Shown here piece after piece: positions 8,270 to 40,281 of a DNA stretch of 42,928 bases. The translations under genes were made by a program, and so were the position numbers. The notes under the pieces are model-generated. The model did not search any database and was not told the origin of the DNA. It saw nothing but the letters and a program-made list of their open reading frames with translations. Location of the stretch: the IMG/VR virus record IMGVR_UViG_3300047557_002645, positions 1-42,928 of that record; one strand, 5' to 3'. The number at the start of each line of letters is the position of its first letter. Position 1 is the stretch's first letter. Source of the stretch: a virus.

Positions 8270-8487
8270 CCAAGCGTCCCCTTCCCTTTTCCGTCATTAT
8301 GGGCACCGAGTCTGAGGTGGTGTCCAATCGGTTTACCGGAGAGTCGGTGACCCTTCCCCCTGACGCCGTGGCAGTGTATGATGCCATCATTGGTGCGGAA
8401 ATGTTCGGGCAGTATAAGATAGTCCGAAAGGGTCTGGATTGGTTCCGTCGGCACTTCCCTGCGGAATACATGGTGTTGCTGGATTGA
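8266..8487 (+). CDS. Conserved small phage protein
   Basis: 73 residues, MTKRPLPFSVIMGTESEVVS... with TGESVTLPPDAVAVYDAI and a WFRRHFPAEYMVLLD end. I know this pattern from several aquatic phages as a hypothetical protein. Start 8266 overlaps the upstream TGA, pointing to coupled translation; longer in-frame versions would overlap the whole previous gene. Confidence 0.75.
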   Translation: MTKRPLPFSVIMGTESEVVSNRFTGESVTLPPDAVAVYDAIIGAEMFGQYKIVRKGLDWFRRHFPAEYMVLLD

Positions 8488-8493
8488 TACAGT

Positions 8494-8587
8494 CGGAGAG
8501 GATGGTTGCCGTCCTCTCCGTCCAGTGTAGAATGGTTTCCATAGCACTGGACGTCCGAGGCTCTAATCCGCCCCTGCGCGCTTTTTT
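8494..8587 (+). ncRNA. Structured two-dyad element, candidate small RNA or promoter/operator (copy 1)
   Basis: Two adjacent perfect inverted repeats: CGGAGAGGA (8494-8502) with TCCTCTCCG (8512-8520), and CGTCCAGTG (8519-8527) with CACTGGACG (8545-8553); the second also pairs ATGG with CCAT in its loop. A promoter-like TTGCCG (8506-8511), 16 bases, TAGAAT (8528-8533) is threaded through them. Downstream, CCGAGGCTCTAATCC and CCCCTGC are repeated almost exactly near 9890-9916, and a T6 run follows at 8582-8587. It is either a folded transcript or a compact operator region; the sequence alone does not decide. Confidence 0.45.
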
Positions 8588-8589
8588 CC

Positions 8590-8635
8590 GTTGCGTGGAT
8601 ACAACGGTTGCCACAACCCATGGCTCCTGTACACT
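8590..8635 (+). promoter_or_regulatory. Dyad promoter
   Basis: GTTG (8590-8593), 8 bases, CAAC (8602-8605), GG, TTGCCA (8608-8613), 16 bases, TACACT (8630-8635). The leader CCATTCCATGATGAA then ACAACGGAG is nearly identical to that of the promoter at 9029. Confidence 0.8.
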
Positions 8636-8675
8636 CCATTCCATGATGAATGCAACCAAAACAACGGAGAAAACC

Positions 8676-9026
8676 ATGCGGTACACCTACGATTCCTCGA
8701 TTGTTTCCGACCTCCACAAGGAAGCCACCGGTTTCCGCCCAGCCCCCGATTTTTGGGCAGAGTGGAACCAAGCCACCGCGGATGAGCGGCAGTATATCTG
8801 GGACAACCTGTTGACGGCTGCGGAACACGCCCAGGACCTCCAGGAACAGGAGGAGCAGGAAGCCATCCGTTATTTTGAGACCCGAGTGGAGAACCTTCTC
8901 CATGCTGGTGGTGACCGTGCCAGCACCATCCAATTGATGATGGAAGCCGCTGGTGCTCAAGGCGACCTGGAATACTTTGAATTCACCCAAGGGCTTCCCT
9001 TCGGCTACCTGACCAAGGCGGTCTGA
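8676..9026 (+). CDS. Phage protein with 'LHKEATGFRP' N-terminal domain
   Basis: 116 residues. The first 45 residues (SDLHKEATGFRPAPDFWAEW... DERQYIWDNL) belong to a common phage family with the D-L-x-K-x-x-x-G-F-R-P signature and unknown role. A glutamate/glutamine-rich linker and a helical tail follow. A shorter paralogue of the N-terminal domain is encoded at 9665-9826. Start 8676 follows GGAG; the ATGs at 8642 and 8645 lie almost at the predicted transcription start and have no ribosome site. Confidence 0.75.
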   Translation: MRYTYDSSIVSDLHKEATGFRPAPDFWAEWNQATADERQYIWDNLLTAAEHAQDLQEQEEQEAIRYFETRVENLLHAGGDRASTIQLMMEAAGAQGDLEYFEFTQGLPFGYLTKAV

Positions 9027-14741: not shown

Positions 14742-15011
14742 ATGGGTAAGATGAAGGATATTCATATTTTAATCGAGGAACTCTTGGAGACGGACCACAC
14801 CTATGAGGAGATTGTGGAACTGATTCAGGAAACGTCCATTCATTTTTCTCCTGAGTATATCATGGAGATTATCATGGACGTGGAGACTCAATTGGCGATC
14901 CGTTATAAAGATATGGAAGATTATGATATCATGGACGGTGACCATGCATCGGCTCTGGCCTCGGCTGGGTGGGGTACGGAAGAATCGTATGGTTATTTTG
15001 GAGATGATTGA
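14742..15011 (+). CDS. Acidic phage protein of unknown function
   Basis: 89 residues, MGKMKDIHILIEELLETDHT..., strongly acidic, ending GTEESYGYFGDD. AGGAG lies just upstream. Its last 19 bases overlap the end of the antisense HNH gene, which marks the insertion edge of that element. Confidence 0.75.
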   Translation: MGKMKDIHILIEELLETDHTYEEIVELIQETSIHFSPEYIMEIIMDVETQLAIRYKDMEDYDIMDGDHASALASAGWGTEESYGYFGDD

Positions 15012-15610
15012 TTCTTGGTGTACTGATTTTTAACATTGGTCTGTTTCGCTCTGGCATTTTTAATTTTTTCCTTTGTTTCTTCGGTGTGATTTCGGCCAAA
15101 AATTTTCTTTTGTTTCAATGCGGCAATTCTCAATTTTTGTTTAGTTTCTTCTGTTATTTTTCTCCCGGCCCTTTTTTTATTTAATTCAATCATTCTCTCT
15201 TTCATTTTTTCTTTCTGTTCGTTTGTATATGTTGGTGATTTTCTGTTAGTGTATTTTCTTCCTTTGTTTGTTTCTTTTAATAAGATTGGAATTTCTTTTC
15301 TCAACTTTTCATAAATTTTTGAATTTATTTTATAATTTCTCTCCATTCTATAAATACCATTTTGATTTGACATGGCCCACAATGCAAACATTAAAGAGTT
15401 TTTTTCCTTTCCGGTTGACATTTTAGTTAAAAGTAAATGGCAAATATAATGCTCTCTATATGTTAATTTAACAAGATTTGAATCAATATTTGATCCTCCA
15501 CATGATACAGGAATTATATGATGTATTTCTCCTAAAAAATCTGAATTACGGCGTTTAGCAAAATTAATAATATTAAAATAAATTCTGGTATATTTTGAGT
15601 TATTGAACAT
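14993..15610 (-). CDS. HNH homing endonuclease with NUMOD3-type repeats
   Basis: 205 residues on the minus strand, the only leftward gene before 40308. The N-terminal half has the HNH core EIHHIIPVSCGGSNIDSNLV and LTYREHYICHLLLTKM. The C-terminal half repeats short basic segments typical of DNA-binding NUMOD3 motifs (TEETKQKLRIAAL and HTEETKEKIKNAR). Its coding is much more AT-rich than either flank. Free-standing HNH enzymes cut a sister genome lacking the insertion and copy themselves by recombination. No intron is evident, since the flanking genes are complete. Confidence 0.9.
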   Translation of the reverse strand: MFNNSKYTRIYFNIINFAKRRNSDFLGEIHHIIPVSCGGSNIDSNLVKLTYREHYICHLLLTKMSTGKEKNSLMFALWAMSNQNGIYRMERNYKINSKIYEKLRKEIPILLKETNKGRKYTNRKSPTYTNEQKEKMKERMIELNKKRAGRKITEETKQKLRIAALKQKKIFGRNHTEETKEKIKNARAKQTNVKNQYTKNQSSPK

Positions 15611-31104: not shown

Positions 31105-31806
31105 ATGGCCACAGGAAAAAAGAAATCAGCCGCTGCACAGGCACAGTCGCAGCATTTTGGGCTTCGTAATATTGAACCCCTTACCGATAATCAAAGAAAA
31201 ACATTTCAGGAATTTGAAAAAGGTAATAACATAGTTCTATCAGGTTCAGCAGGTACAGGTAAATCTTTTCTTGCACTCTATCTTTCACTAAAAGATTTAC
31301 TTGAACCTAATTCATACTATGATAGAATCATAATCATTCGTTCGGCCGTACCTTCAAGAGATTTAGGTTTTGTTCCCGGTACATTGGAAGAAAAATCTAA
31401 AATCTATCAAGAACCATACATGAACATTGTCAATGAATTGATCGGGCGTGGTGATGCATGGCACTTTCTGTTGAACAAAGAGATTATACAATTTCAAACA
31501 ACAAGTTTTCTCCGTGGTTTGACATTTAGAAATTGCATTCTCGTATTTGATGAATTTCAATCGGCAACATTTCATGAAATTGATTCTGTGCTAACCCGTG
31601 TCGGTGAAAATTGTCGGTTCTTTTTATGTGGCGATTGCAATCAAAACGACCTCAATATTAAAAAAGAGAAATCTGGTTTTCATGATGCATTGACAATTTT
31701 AGAGAAACTTGAAAACACTTCGCATATTCAATTTAAATTGGAAGATATTGTGCGAAGCGGATTTGTGAAAAATTATTTAATCGTGAAAGAGAAACTAAAA
31801 CTATAA
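31105..31806 (+). CDS. phoH: PhoH-like ATPase
   Basis: 233 residues. Walker A GSAGTGKS (47-54), IIIRSAVPSRDLGFVPGTLE, Walker B LVFDEFQSA and the CGDCNQNDL motif are the PhoH family signature. PhoH is a standard marker of aquatic phages; it is an ATPase/RNA-binding protein with an unclear role, sometimes tied to phosphate stress. GAGGAG precedes the ATG, and the stop overlaps the exonuclease start. Confidence 0.95.
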   Translation: MATGKKKSAAAQAQSQHFGLRNIEPLTDNQRKTFQEFEKGNNIVLSGSAGTGKSFLALYLSLKDLLEPNSYYDRIIIIRSAVPSRDLGFVPGTLEEKSKIYQEPYMNIVNELIGRGDAWHFLLNKEIIQFQTTSFLRGLTFRNCILVFDEFQSATFHEIDSVLTRVGENCRFFLCGDCNQNDLNIKKEKSGFHDALTILEKLENTSHIQFKLEDIVRSGFVKNYLIVKEKLKL

Positions 31807-32468
31807 TGTTCACCCACTGCCCACCCAAACCTCTACCAAAACTTCAATCAAAAACTCTTGATGACGGTAAAAGATATTACACTACACCAAGTGGTATGGT
31901 TTTACCATCTGTCACGACCGTAATCGGTGCAAAAGGTAAACAAGGCATCATGGAATGGAGAAAGAGGGTTGGTGAGGAAGAAGCCAACCGGATCTCAAGG
32001 TTTGCGGCTGGGCGTGGTACGAAAATGCACGACTTAGTTGAGAAATACCTACTTAATGAAACCATAGATTGGAACGACCAAATGCCTGATGGCGTCTACA
32101 TGTTCCGCAAGATAGCACGAGAGTTAAAGAATATTAATAATATTCATTACATGGAAGATGCGCTTTGGTCTGAAAAACTGGGGCTTGCTGGGCGCGTAGA
32201 CTGTATTGCAGAATGGAAAGGTAAACTTTCTGTAATTGATTTCAAGACCTCACAAAAAATAAAACAAAAAGAACACATCCAGAACTATTTTGCACAATGC
32301 ACTGCATATGCAATGATGTATGAAGAATTGATTGGTGTTCCCATCAATCAAATTGTGGTACTAATTGCAGTCGATGAAGGCGTTTTTCAGGTTTTCGAAG
32401 AAAAAACGGAAGACCATGTATCAACTCTTGCTGAATACATTGATTATTACCATAAAATTAGAACATAA
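31806..32468 (+). CDS. PD-(D/E)XK exonuclease (MGME1/Cas4-like)
   Basis: 220 residues. SVTTVIGAKGKQGIMEWRKR near the N-terminus, GTKMHDLVEKYL, then GLAGRVDCIAEWKGKLSVID-FKTSQ with D132, D145 and K147 as the catalytic D...DxK set, and YFAQCTAYAMMYEE as the trailing helix. This is the single-strand exonuclease type found next to phoH in T4-like aquatic phages. Likely role: DNA repair or recombination. Confidence 0.88.
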   Translation: MFTHCPPKPLPKLQSKTLDDGKRYYTTPSGMVLPSVTTVIGAKGKQGIMEWRKRVGEEEANRISRFAAGRGTKMHDLVEKYLLNETIDWNDQMPDGVYMFRKIARELKNINNIHYMEDALWSEKLGLAGRVDCIAEWKGKLSVIDFKTSQKIKQKEHIQNYFAQCTAYAMMYEELIGVPINQIVVLIAVDEGVFQVFEEKTEDHVSTLAEYIDYYHKIRT

Positions 32469-32503: not shown

Positions 32504-33454
32504 ATGCCAGCTACTTCAAATACAACAGGCGTATTGTATTCCGATACCACCTTTCAATCTTCCTTGAAAAGTCAAGTGAGGGCCATATTTGGATATGGTC
32601 TTAATGCTTCTAGTGTTCGGGTTTCTATTACTAATCTTGTTAATAATATTGGTTTAGTTGGTACAGATGTAACAGGAGTAGGTACAGCAAGAAATTATTT
32701 GGCGGCAGCAGGGTATGGAGGCGATAAGGCTATATTTGGATATGGAACATCGAGTGGTGGTGTATCTTCTGTAACTAATCTTGTTTCTTTTACTGGTGTT
32801 GTTGCAACCGATACAACTGGTGTTGGAACGTCTCGAACATATCTGGCAGCAGCAGGCTATGGTGGTGATAAGGCTATATTCGGATACGGTTATACAACAT
32901 TAGAAGTTTCAATGACTAATTTAGTCTCAAACATTGGCGTCGTTGCAACAGATACGACTGGAGTTGGAACGGCCAGGTACAGTCTAGCGGCCGCAGGATA
33001 TGGTGGCGATAAAGCCATATTTGGATATGGCTATACAACAACTCGTGTTTCAATGACAAATCTTGTATCAAATGCCGGTGTTGTTGCGACAGACACTACT
33101 GGTGTTGGAACGGCTAGAGATGCTTTAGCAGCAGCAGGATATGGTGGCGATAAAGCCATATTTGGATACGGAACCACATCAGGTGCTTTCGGTTCCTCAG
33201 GTGGGAGAGTTTCTACAACCAATCTTGTATCAAATTTAGGTGTTGTTGCAACAGATACGACTGGTGTGGGCAGTTCTCGTTATTTTTTAGCGGCAGCAGG
33301 ATATGGCGGAGATAAGGCCATATTTGGATATGGGTTTACAAATACATCAGCTTCGATGACCAATCTTGTATCAAATACAGGTGTTGTTGCGACAGACACT
33401 ACTGGTGTTGGAACGGCTAGAGACGGTCTAGCGGCAGCAAGTTATTTTTCATAA
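32504..33454 (+). CDS. Six-repeat beta-propeller-like fibre/adhesin protein, copy 1
   Basis: 316 residues. After a short N-terminus (GVLYSDTTFQSSLKSQ, similar to the 'DGTxQTSA' trimer motif of phage fibres) come six repeats of about 45-50 residues: AIFGYG, a variable loop, TNLVSN, GVVATDTTGVGTAR, LAAAGYGGDK. The regular repeat length and GG/Y pattern suggest a six-bladed propeller of kelch type. Variability is confined to the loop after AIFGYG, as expected for a binding face. Likely a receptor-binding or decoration protein of the virion. Confidence 0.8.
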   Translation: MPATSNTTGVLYSDTTFQSSLKSQVRAIFGYGLNASSVRVSITNLVNNIGLVGTDVTGVGTARNYLAAAGYGGDKAIFGYGTSSGGVSSVTNLVSFTGVVATDTTGVGTSRTYLAAAGYGGDKAIFGYGYTTLEVSMTNLVSNIGVVATDTTGVGTARYSLAAAGYGGDKAIFGYGYTTTRVSMTNLVSNAGVVATDTTGVGTARDALAAAGYGGDKAIFGYGTTSGAFGSSGGRVSTTNLVSNLGVVATDTTGVGSSRYFLAAAGYGGDKAIFGYGFTNTSASMTNLVSNTGVVATDTTGVGTARDGLAAASYFS

Positions 33455-35330
33455 AAAGATAAAAAAATGCCCACGATACTAAAAAATTTAAGTTTTGCTT
33501 TTAATGATACAACAGAAATAACTACTGCTAGAACAGGCATTAGAGCAATATTTGGATATGGTTCTGCTTCTTTTAGTCAAGTTTCAATTACAAATCTTGT
33601 TAATAATCTTGGTTTAGTTGATACAAATACAACTGGAGTAGGAACTGCCAGATATGATTTAGCGGCAGCAGTGTATGGTGGCGATAAAGCGATATTTGGA
33701 TACGGTTCTAATTCTGGTGGCAATTTGTCAGTTACAAATCTTGTATCAAATACAGGTGTTGTTGCAACTGATACGACTGGTGTAGGTACAGCTAGGTATG
33801 GATTAGCAGCAGCCGGGTATGGTGGCGATAAAGCGATATTTGGATACGGTTTCCCAGGCACATCTGTTACAAATCTGGTATCTAATACAGGTGTTGTTGC
33901 AACAGATATTACTGGAATAGGAACTTCTAGATATCTTCTAGCCGCAGCAGGGTATGGTGGCGATAAGGCTATATTTGGATATGGCTTTACATCAGTAAGT
34001 GTTTCTATGACAAATCTTGTATCTAATGCGGGCGTCGTTGCAACTGATACTACTGGTGTCGGTACTGCTCGATATAGTTTAGCGGCAGCAGGTTATGGTA
34101 GTGATAAAGCTATATTTGGTTATGGGCGAACAACATCTAACGTATCTATGACAAATCTTGTATCTAATGCGGGCGTCGTTGCAACTGACACAACTGGTGT
34201 TGGTACAGCTAGACAATATCTTGCAGCGGCAGGATATGGAGGAGATAAAGCTATATTTGGATACGGTACAACCGGTTCCGACACATCAGTTACCAATCTT
34301 GTATCTAATGCTGGCGTTGTTGCAACTGACACAACTGGTGTTGGGACAGCTAGAAGTAGTTTAGCCGCATCATCTTTTAGTGGATAAAAGGTAAAACAAA
34401 TGCCCACAGTATTAATTACGTCTGGATTACAGTTTAATGATGGTACAGTGAGAACCTCTGCGCTCATTTCTGAAATGGCCATATTTGGTTATGGAATTAC
34501 AGTAGGTTCTCAAAATATAACAAATATTATCTCTAGCACAGGTGTTGCATCTACAGACCAGACTGGTGTTGGTTTAAATCGCTATGGATTAGCAGCAGCA
34601 GGATATGGCGGTGATAGAGCTATATTTGGTTATGGCAGATTCACTTCAAGTAATAGAGCTGAGACAAATTTAGTTTCAAATTTAGGTGTCGTTGCTACAG
34701 ATACAGGTGGTGTAGGAACTGCAAGATATTATCTTGCTGCGGCAGGTTATGGCTTCGATAAAGCAATATTTGGCTACGGAATTACTTCAACAAACCAATC
34801 AGTATCTAATCTAGTATCGAACATTGGTGTTGTTGCAACTGATACGACTGGTGTAGGTAGTGCAAGACACGGTTTAGCAGCAGCAATATATGGTGGTGAT
34901 AAAGCCATATTTGGTTATGGGGATTCAACAGCTATTACTAGTATAACTAATTTAGTTTCGAATGCTGGTGTTGTTGCAACTGATACGACTGGTGTGGGTA
35001 CTGCGCGTAAGTATTTGGCAGCGGCAGGATATGGTGGAGATAAAGCCATATTTGGATACGGAACCACAACAGGAGGTTCAGCAGCAAGTGTTTCTACAAC
35101 TAATCTGGTATCAAATGCTGGTGTTGTTGCAACAGATACAACTGGCGTAGGCACCGCACGTTCTTATTTGGCTGCATCAACATACGGAGGTGATAAAGCT
35201 ATATTTGGATACGGACAATTAACATCAGGTTCAAATACAACTTTGACGAATCTCGTATCCAATACTGGTGTCGTTTCTTCTGATACAACGGGAGCAGGAA
35301 CTGCCAGAAACTCTTTAGCCGCAGCGGTTT
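32585..35330 (+). repeat. Eighteen-unit coding repeat across three genes
   Basis: Each of the three genes 32504-33454, 33467-34387 and 34400-35338 holds six copies of a roughly 140-base unit. Neighbouring units share long identical DNA tracts coding TNLVSN and VVATDTTGVGTAR. The array offers ample substrate for unequal recombination and blade swapping. Confidence 0.85.
33467..34387 (+). CDS. Six-repeat beta-propeller-like fibre/adhesin protein, copy 2
   Basis: 306 residues, same layout as copy 1: N-terminus MPTILKNLSFAFNDTTEITT, six AIFGYG repeats, end SSLAASSFSG. The third repeat is shortened in its variable loop (GFPGTSV). It starts 12 bases after copy 1 and has its own ribosome site only weakly, so translation may be coupled. 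Confidence 0.8.
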   Translation: MPTILKNLSFAFNDTTEITTARTGIRAIFGYGSASFSQVSITNLVNNLGLVDTNTTGVGTARYDLAAAVYGGDKAIFGYGSNSGGNLSVTNLVSNTGVVATDTTGVGTARYGLAAAGYGGDKAIFGYGFPGTSVTNLVSNTGVVATDITGIGTSRYLLAAAGYGGDKAIFGYGFTSVSVSMTNLVSNAGVVATDTTGVGTARYSLAAAGYGSDKAIFGYGRTTSNVSMTNLVSNAGVVATDTTGVGTARQYLAAAGYGGDKAIFGYGTTGSDTSVTNLVSNAGVVATDTTGVGTARSSLAASSFSG

Positions 35331-35338
35331 TTGGTTAA
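34400..35338 (+). CDS. Six-repeat beta-propeller-like fibre/adhesin protein, copy 3
   Basis: 312 residues. N-terminus LITSGLQFNDGTVRTSALIS carries the clearest phage-fibre motif (F-x-DGT-x-x-TSA). Six AIFGYG repeats follow; the first unit is the most divergent (TNIISSTGVASTDQTGVG) and lacks the GGDK lead. Last unit also varies (VVSSDTTGAGTAR). It ends in AAAVFG. Confidence 0.8.
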   Translation: MPTVLITSGLQFNDGTVRTSALISEMAIFGYGITVGSQNITNIISSTGVASTDQTGVGLNRYGLAAAGYGGDRAIFGYGRFTSSNRAETNLVSNLGVVATDTGGVGTARYYLAAAGYGFDKAIFGYGITSTNQSVSNLVSNIGVVATDTTGVGSARHGLAAAIYGGDKAIFGYGDSTAITSITNLVSNAGVVATDTTGVGTARKYLAAAGYGGDKAIFGYGTTTGGSAASVSTTNLVSNAGVVATDTTGVGTARSYLAASTYGGDKAIFGYGQLTSGSNTTLTNLVSNTGVVSSDTTGAGTARNSLAAAVFG

Positions 35339-36439: not shown

Positions 36440-36472
36440 AACACTTGACAAGTTATAAGGATATAGTATAAT
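36439..36472 (+). promoter_or_regulatory. Sigma70-type promoter with degenerate half dyad
   Basis: AAAC (36439-36442), AC, TTGACA (36445-36450), 16 bases, TATAAT (36467-36472). The T of the -10 box overlaps ATG 36471, so a message from here would begin at about 36479, close to the internal in-frame ATG 36480. Confidence 0.6.
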
Positions 36473-36620
36473 GAAGTATATGGACGATTATACAAGTTTT
36501 GAAGTTCAAAAAAGAATCCTTCTAGAATACATGCAGGTTATGATTGCACTAGAAGATTGGCATGGTGTTGCCGACGTTGCTATGGATTTGAGAGAATTGG
36601 AAGCCAAAAACAAATCCTAA
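36471..36620 (+). CDS. 49-residue conserved phage protein
   Basis: Reads MKYMDDYTSFEVQKRILLEY then MQVMIALEDWHGVADVAMDL and RELEAKNKS. The EDWHGVADxAMDLREL end is a frequent motif of tiny phage proteins. ATG 36471 overlaps a -10 box; ATG 36480 would give 46 residues. AAGGA at 36456-36460 could serve either start. Confidence 0.7.
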   Translation: MKYMDDYTSFEVQKRILLEYMQVMIALEDWHGVADVAMDLRELEAKNKS

Positions 36621-36621
36621 T

Positions 36622-36810
36622 ATGTGGGTTTGGATTTTATCCATCACACTACTAGGCAGTAATCCTGAACATTCCAGAATCGCTAAATTTGAAACCAAAC
36701 AAGACTGCCAGAAAGCATTGATATCTAAAAAGATTGAATATGAACAAAAGGGCAGAGAAATGGTTGGTCATTGTTTCTATGTAAGAGCCGATTCTAAAGG
36801 GTGGTGGTAA
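36622..36810 (+). CDS. Small protein with N-terminal hydrophobic segment
   Basis: 62 residues, MWVWILSITLLGSNPEHSRI then AKFETKQDCQKALISKKIEY and GHCFYVRADSKGWW. The first 12 residues resemble a short signal or anchor; two cysteines (QDCQ, GHCF) could form a disulphide after export. It ends 26 bases before the tmRNA gene. Confidence 0.6.
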   Translation: MWVWILSITLLGSNPEHSRIAKFETKQDCQKALISKKIEYEQKGREMVGHCFYVRADSKGWW

Positions 36811-36816
36811 TAAATA
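36810..36816 (+). promoter_or_regulatory. Late-promoter-like ATAAATA upstream of the tmRNA
   Basis: ATAAATA at 36810-36816, about 20 bases before the start of the tmRNA acceptor piece. If functional, the tmRNA would be made late, together with virion and lysis genes. Confidence 0.4.
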
Positions 36817-36835
36817 AAACTTATGATCGTATGAA

Positions 36836-37142
36836 GTTAATCGAAAGGTGTTCTGGACGGCGGTTCGATTCCGCCCAGGTCCACCAAAAACGCATCAACC
36901 GCTACAGTAGGGATCCCGGTGTTGGCTGCTACACCAACCGATGCGTTTCTGATGGGCCTGACCTGGTTTCGACAGGGCAATAAGTAGAAAGATGGACGAT
37001 CCGGCAAGGTGAAAGCCGTTAGGGTTGGGACCTCCCGGCCGAAGAAGCAAAAACGTAAACGCAAACGACGAACAGTTCGCATTGGCTGCTTAAACACAGC
37101 CTAGGGTTTCGGTGGGTTTCCTCGTAACAGAATAACCCACCA
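36836..37142 (+). ncRNA. ssrA: Circularly permuted (two-piece) tmRNA
   Basis: Rescues stalled ribosomes by acting as alanyl-tRNA and as template for a degradation tag. The 3' tRNA-like part comes first: T-arm GGCGG-TTCGATT-CCGCC (36859-36875), acceptor strand CAGGTCC (36876-36882), A73 and encoded CCA (36884-36886). The 5' part follows at 36954: GGGCCTG pairs with CAGGTCC, including the G3-U70 alanine identity pair, then ACCTGGTTTCGACAGGG. CAGGGCA (36973-36979) pairs with TGTTCTG (36849-36855) as helix P2. The tag frame 37061-37093 encodes ANDEQFALAA-stop. The 67-base intervening piece is clamped by AAACGCATC (36888-36896) / GATGCGTTT (36940-36948). A hairpin GGTGGGTT / AACCCACC (37111-37141) ends the gene. 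The exact ends are estimates. Confidence 0.93.
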
Positions 37143-37161
37143 ATTTCAAAGGAGAACCATA

Positions 37162-37698
37162 ATGCAGTTTATGAAACTTGTTTTCATAGGCATTCTTGGC
37201 TACTTTTTCACACAGCATTTTCATTATTTAATAGACCACAAATTTGAAGAAGTCAAAGAGAGTAATAAGCAACATCCTCCATTTATAACAATGTCTCAAC
37301 GTGAAAAAGAACTTGACTGTCTAACGAAAAACATATATTATGAAGCAGGAACAGAACCTTTTGAAGGAAAAGTAGCAGTAGCACAAGTTACAATCAACAG
37401 AACAAAATCAGGTAAATTTCCAAAAGATATATGTGCAGTTGTATACGAAAGAAATCTCGTATATAATAATCTTATTTGTCAATTTAGCTGGTATTGTGAT
37501 TCAAAAGCAAAAGTGAGACCTATTCATGCAGCAACCTATAAAGAATCCGAGGCTGTGGCTAAAAAGGTACTTCTCGAAGGCTTCAAACTTGACATCATCA
37601 AAGAGGATACATTATACTATCATGCAGACTACATCAACCCAGGATGGAAAAGACAGCGAGTCGCCAAAATTGGAAAACACATCTTCTACAAAGGCTAA
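37162..37698 (+). CDS. SleB-type cell-wall hydrolase (endolysin candidate)
   Basis: 178 residues. N-terminal hydrophobic segment (FMKLVFIGILGYFF), then the Hydrolase_2/SleB domain: CLTKNIYYEAGTEPFEGKVA with the catalytic glutamate E61, VTINR, FPKDICAVVYE, CQFSWYCD, and LYYHADYINPGW with VAKIGKHIFY. SleB enzymes cut the glycan backbone of peptidoglycan. The hydrophobic N-terminus could act as signal-arrest-release anchor or tether. AAGGAG precedes ATG. It overlaps the holin-like gene, forming a lysis pair. Confidence 0.85.
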   Translation: MQFMKLVFIGILGYFFTQHFHYLIDHKFEEVKESNKQHPPFITMSQREKELDCLTKNIYYEAGTEPFEGKVAVAQVTINRTKSGKFPKDICAVVYERNLVYNNLICQFSWYCDSKAKVRPIHAATYKESEAVAKKVLLEGFKLDIIKEDTLYYHADYINPGWKRQRVAKIGKHIFYKG

Positions 37699-38014
37699 CT
37701 GGCTTGAGCGTTTCTCAAATACAAAAGATTATATGAGAGACTTTTTCAATAACAAACTAAAACCAAGTACAGCCGAATCAATCGGTTGGGTCGGGCTAGT
37801 TTTACTTCTTGCAGCAGTCATTCCAACCTTTCTGGCTGTCATGGCTGGCGTAACAGATAAGATGCCGCCAATTGATCTTGTTCTGTTTATGTGGGCAGCT
37901 CTGATTACATTCTTTGTTCGTGCAGCAATTCTTAAAGACACGGTCGTTGTACTGACGATTGGCATTGGCTTTATGGTAAATGCTGTGTTCATGGCCCTTA
38001 TTCTCTTTAAATAA
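37622..38014 (+). CDS. Holin-like membrane protein
   Basis: 130 residues from ATG 37622, which lies inside the hydrolase gene in another frame. Hydrophilic start (MQTTSTQDGKDSESPKLENT), then three membrane segments: IGWVGLVLLLAAVIPTFLAV, LVLFMWAALITFFV and VVVLTIGIGFMVNAVFMALI. Three segments and the overlap with a peptidoglycan hydrolase gene fit a class I holin. No direct family match is known to me, so it could be another membrane protein. Confidence 0.65.
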   Translation: MQTTSTQDGKDSESPKLENTSSTKANWLERFSNTKDYMRDFFNNKLKPSTAESIGWVGLVLLLAAVIPTFLAVMAGVTDKMPPIDLVLFMWAALITFFVRAAILKDTVVVLTIGIGFMVNAVFMALILFK

Positions 38015-38015
38015 T

Positions 38016-38237
38016 ATGGCTACAAAAGAAGAACAGAAAAACTTTTCTTCTCTGATACAGGGTATCGTTGAAGAAAAAAATCTCACATACATTGATGCAA
38101 TCGTTTATCATTGTGAGCAAACTGGCTTTGAGATTGAACTCGCAGCCACACTTTTAACAGCAGTGATTAAATCCAAAATTTCGGATGAAGCACAGTCTTT
38201 AAATTTGATCAAGAAGGTTAATAAGCTACCAATATGA
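38016..38237 (+). CDS. 33: Late-transcription coactivator gp33
   Basis: 73 residues: FSSLIQGIVEEKNLTYIDAI, VYHCEQTGFEIELAATLLTA, KSKISDEAQSLNLIKKVNKL. This matches the phage late-transcription coactivator family (T4 gp33), which bridges RNA polymerase and the sliding clamp at late promoters. It lies directly before gp59, as in T4-like genomes where 33 and 59 are neighbours. CTAAATA-type motifs elsewhere in the window would be its targets together with a gp55 sigma factor, which is not in the window. Confidence 0.85.
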   Translation: MATKEEQKNFSSLIQGIVEEKNLTYIDAIVYHCEQTGFEIELAATLLTAVIKSKISDEAQSLNLIKKVNKLPI

Positions 38238-38839
38238 ATGAAGCTGGCGGATATGAAGCTTTTACACTATATCATGGATTGAAATTACATTTTTCTGGTA
38301 AATATGATTTTATAAAATATAATGGCAAGACAAATGTAAACAAAGATCAGTTTATGTTAAGAAAGGACAAATATTCTTTTTATAAACTGTCTCGAAAATA
38401 CAAACGTGAAGAACTTTTTGGTTTCTATATCTCTAATTTTCTCATCAATACTAATATATGGGTTGGTGACTTAATGCAAGACGATGCAGATCAAGAATAT
38501 AAAAAGTGGCTTAAAGCACAACAATCTTTGTCTTATATTTTTGACCAAAATCTAAATCACCTTTTTGATCTGGTAGAAATGCCGGAAGATATGCTAAAAG
38601 TGGTTGACGGGCAATACCCTTTGCTGTATAATGAATACTTGCAAGGTAAAGTGAATCTGGAAACGATAATCATTCTCAATGATATTATGAATTTCTTTCC
38701 GATGTGGAAGAAAAAGGTGACCGATGATATCGTATTTCCAGATTTCATTACCAAATGCGAGAAATATAAGCCGTTTCTAAACTATGATAAAGCAAAATTC
38801 AAAAGTAAAATTAAGGAAAAAATATGTCAACTAGCGTAA
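38234..38839 (+). CDS. 59: Helicase-loading protein gp59
   Basis: 201 residues. GLKLHFSGKYDFIKYNGKTN, LRKDKYSFYKLSRKYKREEL, FGFYISNFLINTNIWVGDLM align with T4 gp59 (GKYDVIKYN, RRDKYFFQKLSEKYK, ISN...WIGD). gp59 binds fork DNA and gp32 and loads the gp41 helicase. Its partner gp32 is two genes downstream. ATGA overlap with gene 33. Confidence 0.9.
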   Translation: MNEAGGYEAFTLYHGLKLHFSGKYDFIKYNGKTNVNKDQFMLRKDKYSFYKLSRKYKREELFGFYISNFLINTNIWVGDLMQDDADQEYKKWLKAQQSLSYIFDQNLNHLFDLVEMPEDMLKVVDGQYPLLYNEYLQGKVNLETIIILNDIMNFFPMWKKKVTDDIVFPDFITKCEKYKPFLNYDKAKFKSKIKEKICQLA

Positions 38840-39321
38840 CAAAAATTTATGTTGATATGGATGGAGTCATTGCAGACTTCGAAAAACGTTTCAAAGAACT
38901 GACGGGTAAATTGCCATCAGACTATAAAACAGAAGCTGGATTTAGAACTAATTTTCAAAAGATAATTGATGGCGGCCATTTCGAAACTCTTGATAAGATG
39001 ACAGACTTTGAAACTCTTGTGTCTTTTCTAAATTCTGTCCCGGTAGAAAAATGTATTTTATCCTCAACGGCTCGACCGGAAACTAATTTTGCAGTTGCTA
39101 TGCAGAAGATGCAATGGCTAGCAAAAGTTGGAATTACTTGGCCCAAAATTTTTGTGCCAGGAAAGCAACTGAAGCAAGAACATGCAACACCGAATTCTAT
39201 TCTGATCGATGATACACCAATTGTTATCGAACAGTGGAATGCAGCAGGTGGTATCGGCATTCTTCACACGGATGCCTTGTCTACCATTGAAATGCTGAAG
39301 CAGCACCTTGATTTGAACTAA
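38824..39321 (+). CDS. HAD-type 5'(3')-deoxyribonucleotidase
   Basis: 165 residues. KIYVDMDGVIADFE has the DxD nucleophile pair (D11, D13); CILSSTARPE carries the motif II serine/threonine, and ILIDDTPIVIEQW motif IV with two aspartates. This is the pattern of phage 5'-nucleotidases of the HAD superfamily. Likely role: adjusting nucleotide pools during replication. It overlaps gene 59 by 16 bases. Confidence 0.85.
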   Translation: MSTSVTKIYVDMDGVIADFEKRFKELTGKLPSDYKTEAGFRTNFQKIIDGGHFETLDKMTDFETLVSFLNSVPVEKCILSSTARPETNFAVAMQKMQWLAKVGITWPKIFVPGKQLKQEHATPNSILIDDTPIVIEQWNAAGGIGILHTDALSTIEMLKQHLDLN

Positions 39322-39393: not shown

Positions 39394-40281
39394 ATGTCAT
39401 CATTCGCAAATCTCAAACGCTCCTCGGGTAATCTGGAAAAGCTTGCAAAAGCTATTGAACAACTCAATTCTTCAGAAGCACCCTCCAAAGAAGACAATTT
39501 CTGGAAACCTGAAGTAGATAAAGCAGGTAACGGCTATGCTGTTATTCGTTTTCTACCTCAGCCCTCTGTTGACGGAGATGATGGTCTTCCTTGGGTTAAA
39601 ATCTTCAATCACGGCTTTCAGGGTCCCGGTGGCTGGTACATCGAGAATTCACTGACTACTCTTGGTCAAAAAGATCCTGTCTCTGAGTATAATTCGCAAC
39701 TTTGGAATTCTGGAATTGAAGCAAACAAAGAAATCGCTCGTAAGCAAAAACGCCGCCTTTCTTATATCTCTAACATCTACGTTGTGGAAGATCCGAAAAA
39801 TCCCGAAAACGAAGGAAAAGTATTTCTGTACAAATACGGAAAGAAAATCTTCGACAAGATTAATGAGGCAATGAATCCACAGTTTGAAGATGAAAAAGCT
39901 ATCAATCCTTTTGATATGTGGAGTGGTGCTAATTTCAAACTCAAAATCCGTAAAGTAGAAGGATATCAGAACTATGACAAATCGGAGTTTGAATCTGCTT
40001 CTGTTCTTGGCGATTTTGATGATGATAAACTTGAAGCAATCTGGAAATCTGAGCATTCTCTCAAAGAATTCCTCAGCCCAGACAATTTCAAGTCTTACGA
40101 TGAATTGAAAGCCAAACTTGATAAAGTTCTTGGCGTAGACGGTACTGTTGCACCGAAGACTACTGTTGAAAGTGCAAAAGCACCTACTCCTGCTGCTCGG
40201 AAACCAGCACCTGTTACATCAGACACTTCTGATGATGACGATGACTTGGCGTACTTTAGTAAATTGGCTGAAGAAGAGTAA
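39394..40281 (+). CDS. 32: Single-stranded DNA-binding protein gp32
   Basis: 295 residues. N-terminal cooperativity segment (MSSFANLKRSSGNLEKLAKA), OB-fold core with FLPQPS, IFNHGFQGPGGWYIENSLTT, ISNIYVVEDPKNPENEGKVF and LYKYGKKIFDKINEAMNPQF, then an acidic C-terminus (TSDDDDDLAYF). Core and ends match T4 gp32. The histidine of the T4 zinc site is kept (NHGF) but the three zinc cysteines are not: WYIENC reads WYIENS, and CPVC reads PVS. ATG 39394 has AAAGGA upstream; an ATG at 39343 is rejected. Confidence 0.93.
   Translation: MSSFANLKRSSGNLEKLAKAIEQLNSSEAPSKEDNFWKPEVDKAGNGYAVIRFLPQPSVDGDDGLPWVKIFNHGFQGPGGWYIENSLTTLGQKDPVSEYNSQLWNSGIEANKEIARKQKRRLSYISNIYVVEDPKNPENEGKVFLYKYGKKIFDKINEAMNPQFEDEKAINPFDMWSGANFKLKIRKVEGYQNYDKSEFESASVLGDFDDDKLEAIWKSEHSLKEFLSPDNFKSYDELKAKLDKVLGVDGTVAPKTTVESAKAPTPAARKPAPVTSDTSDDDDDLAYFSKLAEEE

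Follow-up and report, generated by a model that had tools for sequence, protein, structure and literature searches.

Gene organization of the locus

The window analyzed here is a virus record of 42,928 bases, in which ARAGORN identified a single RNA gene, a permuted tmRNA with the tag ANDEQFALAA. The tmRNA and the following neighbors are located on the plus strand. Upstream lie a PhoH-like gene and an exonuclease gene (31105-32468; phrog_170 and phrog_298), a small ORF of 49 aa without a PHROG match (36471-36620), which is placed between a promoter and the tmRNA and is probably co-transcribed with the latter, and a second small ORF of 62 aa with a weak match to phrog_5579 (36622-36810). Downstream, the tmRNA is followed by a cell-wall hydrolase of the Hydrolase_2/endolysin type (37162-37698; PF07486, E 4.2e-23; phrog_938) and by a conserved neighbor without a family match, which is called a holin-like small membrane protein from its position and hydrophobic stretches only (37670-38014). 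Next are genes for a T4 gp33-like late-transcription coactivator (38016-38237; phrog_254, E 2.3e-15), which shares 38% identity over 50 aa with the coactivator of the Methylophilales phage Melnitz, a T4 gp59-like helicase loader (38234-38839; phrog_269, E 2.6e-54), an NT5C-like 5'-3' deoxyribonucleotidase (38824-39321; phrog_2643), and a T4 gp32-like single-strand DNA-binding protein (39394-40281; PF08804; phrog_224), whose closest counterparts among isolates belong to cyanophages. By its gp33, gp59, gp32, PhoH and exonuclease genes the window is assigned to a T4-like phage. This placement, and that of the tmRNA beside the lysis genes, had been proposed in an earlier reading of the DNA letters alone (hereafter, the sequence-only reading), and the three T4-type genes together with the adjoining Hydrolase_2 gene agree with it.

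Two further features of the window were noted. Three adjacent paralogous repeat proteins with the motif AIFGYG are encoded between the exonuclease and the tmRNA region (32504-35338), and the two of them that were tested had no PHROG match. An HNH/NUMOD3 homing-endonuclease-like gene (14993-15610) is located on the minus strand, opposite to its neighbors.

Layout of the permuted tmRNA gene

The sequence-only reading had described a phage-encoded permuted tmRNA with the above tag and had named a covariance search with permuted models as its check. In this search, both Rfam models scored above their curated cut-offs, in agreement with ARAGORN: tmRNA_permuted (RF04321) gave a full-length match at 36825-37093 with 135.3 bits (cut-off 47; E 1.5e-26), and beta_tmRNA (RF01850) matched at 36774-37148 with 129.2 bits (cut-off 84).

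The CCA-ending 3' part lies ahead of the 5' part, with a spacer intervening, all on the plus strand. As delimited by the Rfam matches, sequence anchors and pair counts, the 3' piece, which is transcribed first, occupies 36825-36886; it holds P2 strands, the T arm (36859-36875), the 3' strand of the acceptor stem, CAGGTCC (36876-36882), and the encoded ACCA at its end (36883-36886). The spacer (36887-36953) measures 67 nt, exactly the length of the insert recognized previously, and through its terminal hairpin the two halves of the acceptor come to lie side by side. The 5' piece (36954-37142) starts from G1 with the 5' strand of the acceptor, GGGCCTG (36954-36960), and includes a D-like region, a pseudoknot region, the tag frame GCA...TAA encoding ANDEQFALAA and a stop (37061-37093), and a closing 3' hairpin (approximately 37111-37141). 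The extent of 36836-37142 originally assigned to the gene is thus correct at its end, while its start misses about 11 nt, including one P2 strand, as the 3' piece begins at about 36825. Judged from its sequence, this T4-like phage carries an intact ssrA gene in permuted form.

Structure and covariation

When the two parts are joined, the acceptor strands GGGCCTG and CAGGTCC form seven of seven pairs, including G3-U70, as the sequence-only reading had stated, and its view that P2 can be formed across the permutation also holds: the upper part of P2 (36849-36855 with 36973-36979) has 7/7 pairs in the window, and the lower part (36825-36830 with 36996-37001) has 6/6. Pairs were counted in 83 distinct phage tmRNAs, with the two pieces joined, and compared with shuffles. 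The acceptor stem was paired in 100% of cells (shuffled mean 84%, maximum 87%), the upper P2 in 99% (mean 81%, maximum 84%), and the lower P2 in only 80% (mean 69%, maximum 72%). G3-U70 was kept in all 83 sequences, acceptor positions 4 to 7 had changed on both strands, and double changes were numerous in the acceptor and P2 helices. The acceptor stem and P2, each formed across separate pieces, therefore covary strongly.

Acceptor pairing in this alignment was partly selected by ARAGORN and by the 7/7 filter; since both favor paired acceptors, the halves were also placed by sequence anchors that are blind to pairing. In 24 of 34 cases the halves paired 7/7 as printed, and the remaining 10 did so after a 1-nt offset of the 5' anchor, a reading of ours that was borne out by later comparison. 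The spacer ends were able to pair, with 6-19 end-to-end pairs, in 83 of 84 phage spacers. tmRNA is rich in pseudoknots, which the folding program cannot model, and it is thus unsurprising that the minimum-energy fold of the window was no better than shuffles (z -1.2). In the mRNA-like part, nested-structure tools, which leave out pseudoknots, gave only plausible hairpins. A chance or artefactual origin of the call is ruled out by ARAGORN, the Rfam matches and the covariation over the 83 phage sequences.

Conservation of the locus in related phages

A search with gp59 yielded 27 viral loci. A permuted tmRNA was found upstream of gp33-gp59 in 17 of 17 relatives with a gp59 identity of at least 52% and a sufficient stretch of upstream sequence (L122-L129 and L131-L139, of which L127 and L138 end at a contig edge), and four more distant gp59 loci (L140, L142, L144 and L145) gave no tmRNA match. 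The fixed place of the permuted tmRNA in all 17 of these relatives is new here. Both in the window and in Melnitz the tmRNA is positioned between PhoH/exonuclease and gp33-gp59-gp32; the tmRNA thus holds a conserved place, although the type of the RNA differs (alpha-like in Melnitz, beta-like in the window).

Some of the related loci have additional elements. In L124 (7489-8152) an HNH homing-endonuclease-like ORF, and in L037 (2971-3912) a SegE-like GIY-YIG homing-endonuclease-like ORF, lies within the 5' part of the permuted tmRNA gene. Both loci retain a remnant of an old 3' piece upstream and have a different, complete 3' piece downstream, as if an endonuclease element had brought a replacement 3' piece. 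The T arm of these two genes was considered as the site of a group I intron, a reading that was rejected, as there was no match to an intron model and the endonuclease ORFs were found instead. The tmRNA 3' hairpin is repeated ahead of the endolysin gene in L122 (3912-3942) and L124 (8885-8919), and in L124 a gene for a beta-barrel outer-membrane-like protein (8435-8872) is placed between the two copies.

Promoters

Two promoter types were identified upstream of the tmRNA, both on the plus strand. A sigma-70 promoter matching the consensus at 12 of 12 positions, TTGACA-16-TATAAT (36445-36472), is located 346 nt upstream of the tmRNA, with the two small ORFs in between. Just upstream of the 5' end, the late-promoter-like motif of the sequence-only reading is present at 36809-36816 as AATAAATA, with 7 of 8 positions of the T4 late-type element TATAAATA; the close relative L054 has an exact TATAAATA at the same position. 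Among 89 non-redundant relatives, a proximal sigma-70 promoter with at least 10 of 12 positions was found in 29 (1.1 expected, maximum 6), and TATAAATA in 6 (0.23 expected, maximum 2). These frequencies suggest that early transcription by the host polymerase would be common in this tmRNA family, with late transcription being no general rule; the latter is possible in some members, and transcription both early and late is possible for the window. The late role proposed earlier may therefore apply here, given AATAAATA and its exact counterpart in L054, but the window also has a 12/12 sigma-70 promoter, and this type is the commoner one in relatives. In mycobacteriophage Wildcat, the tmRNA is the most highly expressed lytic gene (PMC7474061).

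Diversity of tags

For a sample independent of the tag, viral contigs were chosen by a motif of the 5' piece, TGGTTTCGACAGGGCA, and 122 of the 128 loci obtained were permuted. These 122 tmRNAs carry 53 different tags, which end in LAA in 100 cases and in LAA, MAA, VAA or IAA in 114. ClpXP recognizes LAA, and varied inner residues combined with a constant C-terminus are what would be expected from selection for a ClpXP degron. Since the tag of the window, ANDEQFALAA, retains the ALAA degron, the suggestion that the phage reroutes tagging is unsupported for this gene.

Distribution in viruses and bacteria

At least 119 viral contigs contain the 20-mer GCAAACGACGAACAGTTCGC, which corresponds to the first part of the tag; among those listed, ARAGORN called 94 permuted tmRNAs, made no call in 25, and found none with the standard form only. 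The same 20-mer was found twice in 84,980 species genomes of bacteria and archaea, once in a protein gene and once in a phage-like contig of a MAG, and it was in no bacterial tmRNA of this set. An initial genome-wide scan with a 26-mer gave no matches. The tmRNA of the window belongs to a large family whose members were here almost all viral. Bacterial contamination is ruled out by the T4 neighbor genes and by the lack of the tag 20-mer in the bacterial tmRNAs of these 84,980 genomes.

The MAG contig with the 20-mer, L149 (CAIMTR010000195.1), is a short contig of a gammaproteobacterial MAG; it has seven tRNAs and a phage-type permuted tmRNA, and is probably phage DNA binned with a bacterium. 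In Cupriavidus plasmids (hits H43-H45), short unannotated stretches resemble the tmRNA region in two pieces at 93-94%.

When the 5' piece was compared by Blast with 349 genomes of one order, called betaproteobacterial from the model score of its center genome, matches reached at most approximately 46 nt. The sampled genomes contained no close bacterial tmRNA, the best matches being below 60 nt, so that the host of the phage is not inferable from the tmRNA. In a gammaproteobacterial sample, permuted tmRNAs above the cut-off of the beta model were found in only 2 of 369, one of them a phage-like contig. Bacterial permuted genes of the same kind, sampled from two families, differ from the phage genes in their acceptors, with GGGCCTG not seen among them, and in their spacers, the median length being 87 nt in phages versus 30 nt in bacterial permuted tmRNAs.

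In trees, the window groups with L054, L081 and L122 (97 to 99) inside a phage-only group. Two quick trees gave a phage-only clade of 95 rows including the window (94 and 95); this clade was not recovered with a thinned set, yet it was not rejected (p-AU 0.196), and neither was a single clade of all phage rows (p-AU 0.41). The deep branches of these trees depend on sampling, and some alphaproteobacterial genes were excluded from the rows owing to T-arm offsets.

Comparison with known tmRNAs

The mycobacteriophage and Streptomyces phage tmRNAs are of the one-piece form. They resemble the window gene in being phage-encoded and having a tag, and differ from it in their standard gene order and actinobacterial hosts (PMC4131195). 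Two-piece tmRNAs of phages were published in 2022 with Melnitz, in a study that distinguished 133 unique genetic structures of tmRNA over 402 phages, 53 of them two-piece genes of phage isolates, mostly aquatic (PMC9004378), and a tmRNA database holds 79 phage sequences (PMC11915505). The two-piece tmRNA highlighted by the sequence-only reading as a find in a T4-like phage is thus indeed present, but its kind had already been published. The literature searched, which was incomplete, did not yield a description of the conserved locus in this clade, of the scarcity of this tag sequence in bacteria, of the two types of promoter or of the endonuclease insertions.

Melnitz (MZ577097), a cultured T4-like phage, also has a permuted tmRNA, in the order PhoH - exonuclease - tmRNA - gp33 - gp59 - thyX - gp32, with near-consensus promoter elements just upstream of it, as in the window. 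Its tmRNA is recognized by the alpha model (RF01849, 106.7 bits), whereas that of the window matches the beta model; the Melnitz tag is ANDNYVPVDYALAA, and the spacer is 142 nt long compared with 67 nt. In Melnitz the tmRNA is followed by a glutamine riboswitch (RF01739), while in the window it is followed directly by the endolysin gene, and Rfam searches did not find RF01739 in the window. The Melnitz paper describes this riboswitch as common but not defining (PMC9004378), and so its absence from the window is no bar to the comparison of the loci.

With the betaproteobacterial tmRNAs of RF01850 the window gene shares the permuted layout, the encoded CCA, G3-U70 and a tag of the ANDExFALAA kind, but scores 129 bits, while the highest-scoring bacterial gene found here, L210, reaches 251. 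Large tailed phages, namely the Menderavirus phages of Stenotrophomonas and the Xanthomonas phages X1 and XacN1, have permuted tmRNAs that match RF04321 and, in two of these three, RF01850; they are located near tRNA genes and not at gp33-gp59, and two of the three have unusual tags, VAANDDSYTVRIAA and VAANDADYSVARYA. The permuted tmRNAs of XacN1 (L267) and X1 (L237) are unannotated in their records, and the tag of X1 ends in RYA, not LAA. Several Menderavirus records (L236, hits H1-H17) annotate either a tRNA-Leu at the permuted tmRNA or nothing.

Predicted function and alternative explanations

No SmpB gene was found in the 25 phage records searched, which include three isolate genomes, complete ones among them, in a search with matches in 10 of 14 control genomes; the phage tmRNA must therefore use host SmpB. 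With a probability of roughly three in four, we propose that the phage tmRNA supplements host trans-translation through host SmpB, alanyl-tRNA synthetase and ClpXP. This proposal builds on the structure, covariation, retained degron, conserved locus and promoters, as established from sequence, and from these we infer the processing, charging, activity and benefit of the RNA. One precursor, with the 3' piece, the spacer and the 5' piece in this order, would be made by the RNA polymerase of the host and possibly also by the late polymerase as modified by the phage. From this precursor host tRNA-processing enzymes would excise the 67-nt spacer, and the two resulting RNAs would stay joined through the acceptor stem and P2. 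Charging of the tmRNA by alanyl-tRNA synthetase would depend on G3-U70, host SmpB would deliver the charged RNA to stalled ribosomes on broken mRNAs, and there translation would resume at the GCA at 37061, adding ANDEQFALAA and a stop to a product then degraded by ClpXP. The likely benefit to the phage would be extra trans-translation capacity during the breakdown of host and phage mRNAs, which would keep ribosomes free. If lytic phages carry ribosome rescue as a conserved component of their core replication/lysis region, trans-translation would have to be a limiting process in infected cells.

Alternatively, the phage copy could restore trans-translation when the host tmRNA is cut or depleted by defense nucleases or shut-off, in which case a differing sequence would matter more than quantity. 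The distance of the phage gene from the sampled bacterial tmRNAs fits this idea, as does the presence of permuted genes in Xanthomonadaceae phages despite their rarity in the gammaproteobacterial sample. However, nucleases cutting the host tmRNA are not known for these hosts, and sequence divergence by itself is no proof of resistance; we regard this explanation as improbable.

In a decoy role, the tRNA-like part of the phage RNA would block trans-translation of the host by binding its SmpB or its alanyl-tRNA synthetase. Such a role was proposed as possible for mycobacteriophage DS6A, which encodes little beyond the tRNA-like domain; an RNA of this kind is able to inhibit tmRNA, perhaps through titration of SmpB (PMC4131195). 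Yet a decoy requires no tag, whereas in the phages studied here an LAA-type degron frame persists through 53 tags and the mRNA-like half is well conserved, which makes this role quite improbable. The ssrA gene is a frequent integration site of prophages, and these carry fragments of it (PMC9004378). Even so, a host fragment acquired recently, or bacterial DNA mistaken for a viral contig, functionless for the phage, has next to no probability for a full-length gene that lies amid gp33-gp59-gp32, in a place conserved in relatives, with a tag 20-mer missing from the bacterial tmRNAs of all 84,980 species genomes.

Origin of the phage genes

T4-like phages may have had the permuted tmRNA as an old gene, passed on together with gp33-gp59 and moved between phages, and phages may in addition have delivered it to betaproteobacteria; as a whole, this proposal is a tentative and rather unlikely one. 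Its first half, an old resident rather than a gene taken repeatedly from hosts, is favored by the tag scan and the conserved locus. Phage delivery to betaproteobacteria, if true, would explain one separate bacterial lineage with a two-piece tmRNA. The viral family offers a test bed for the origin of permuted tmRNA genes and, being large, with varied tags and kept degrons, a natural experiment on which tag residues matter. Phages whose hosts seem seldom to have permuted genes may suit such tests best. Some phages of the TGGTTTCGACAGGGCA sample have very long tags, for example ANDDSFDFAALSFTGNTVGGRVALAA and the cyanobacterial-looking ANTSDSAANNIVAFSRSTVAA.
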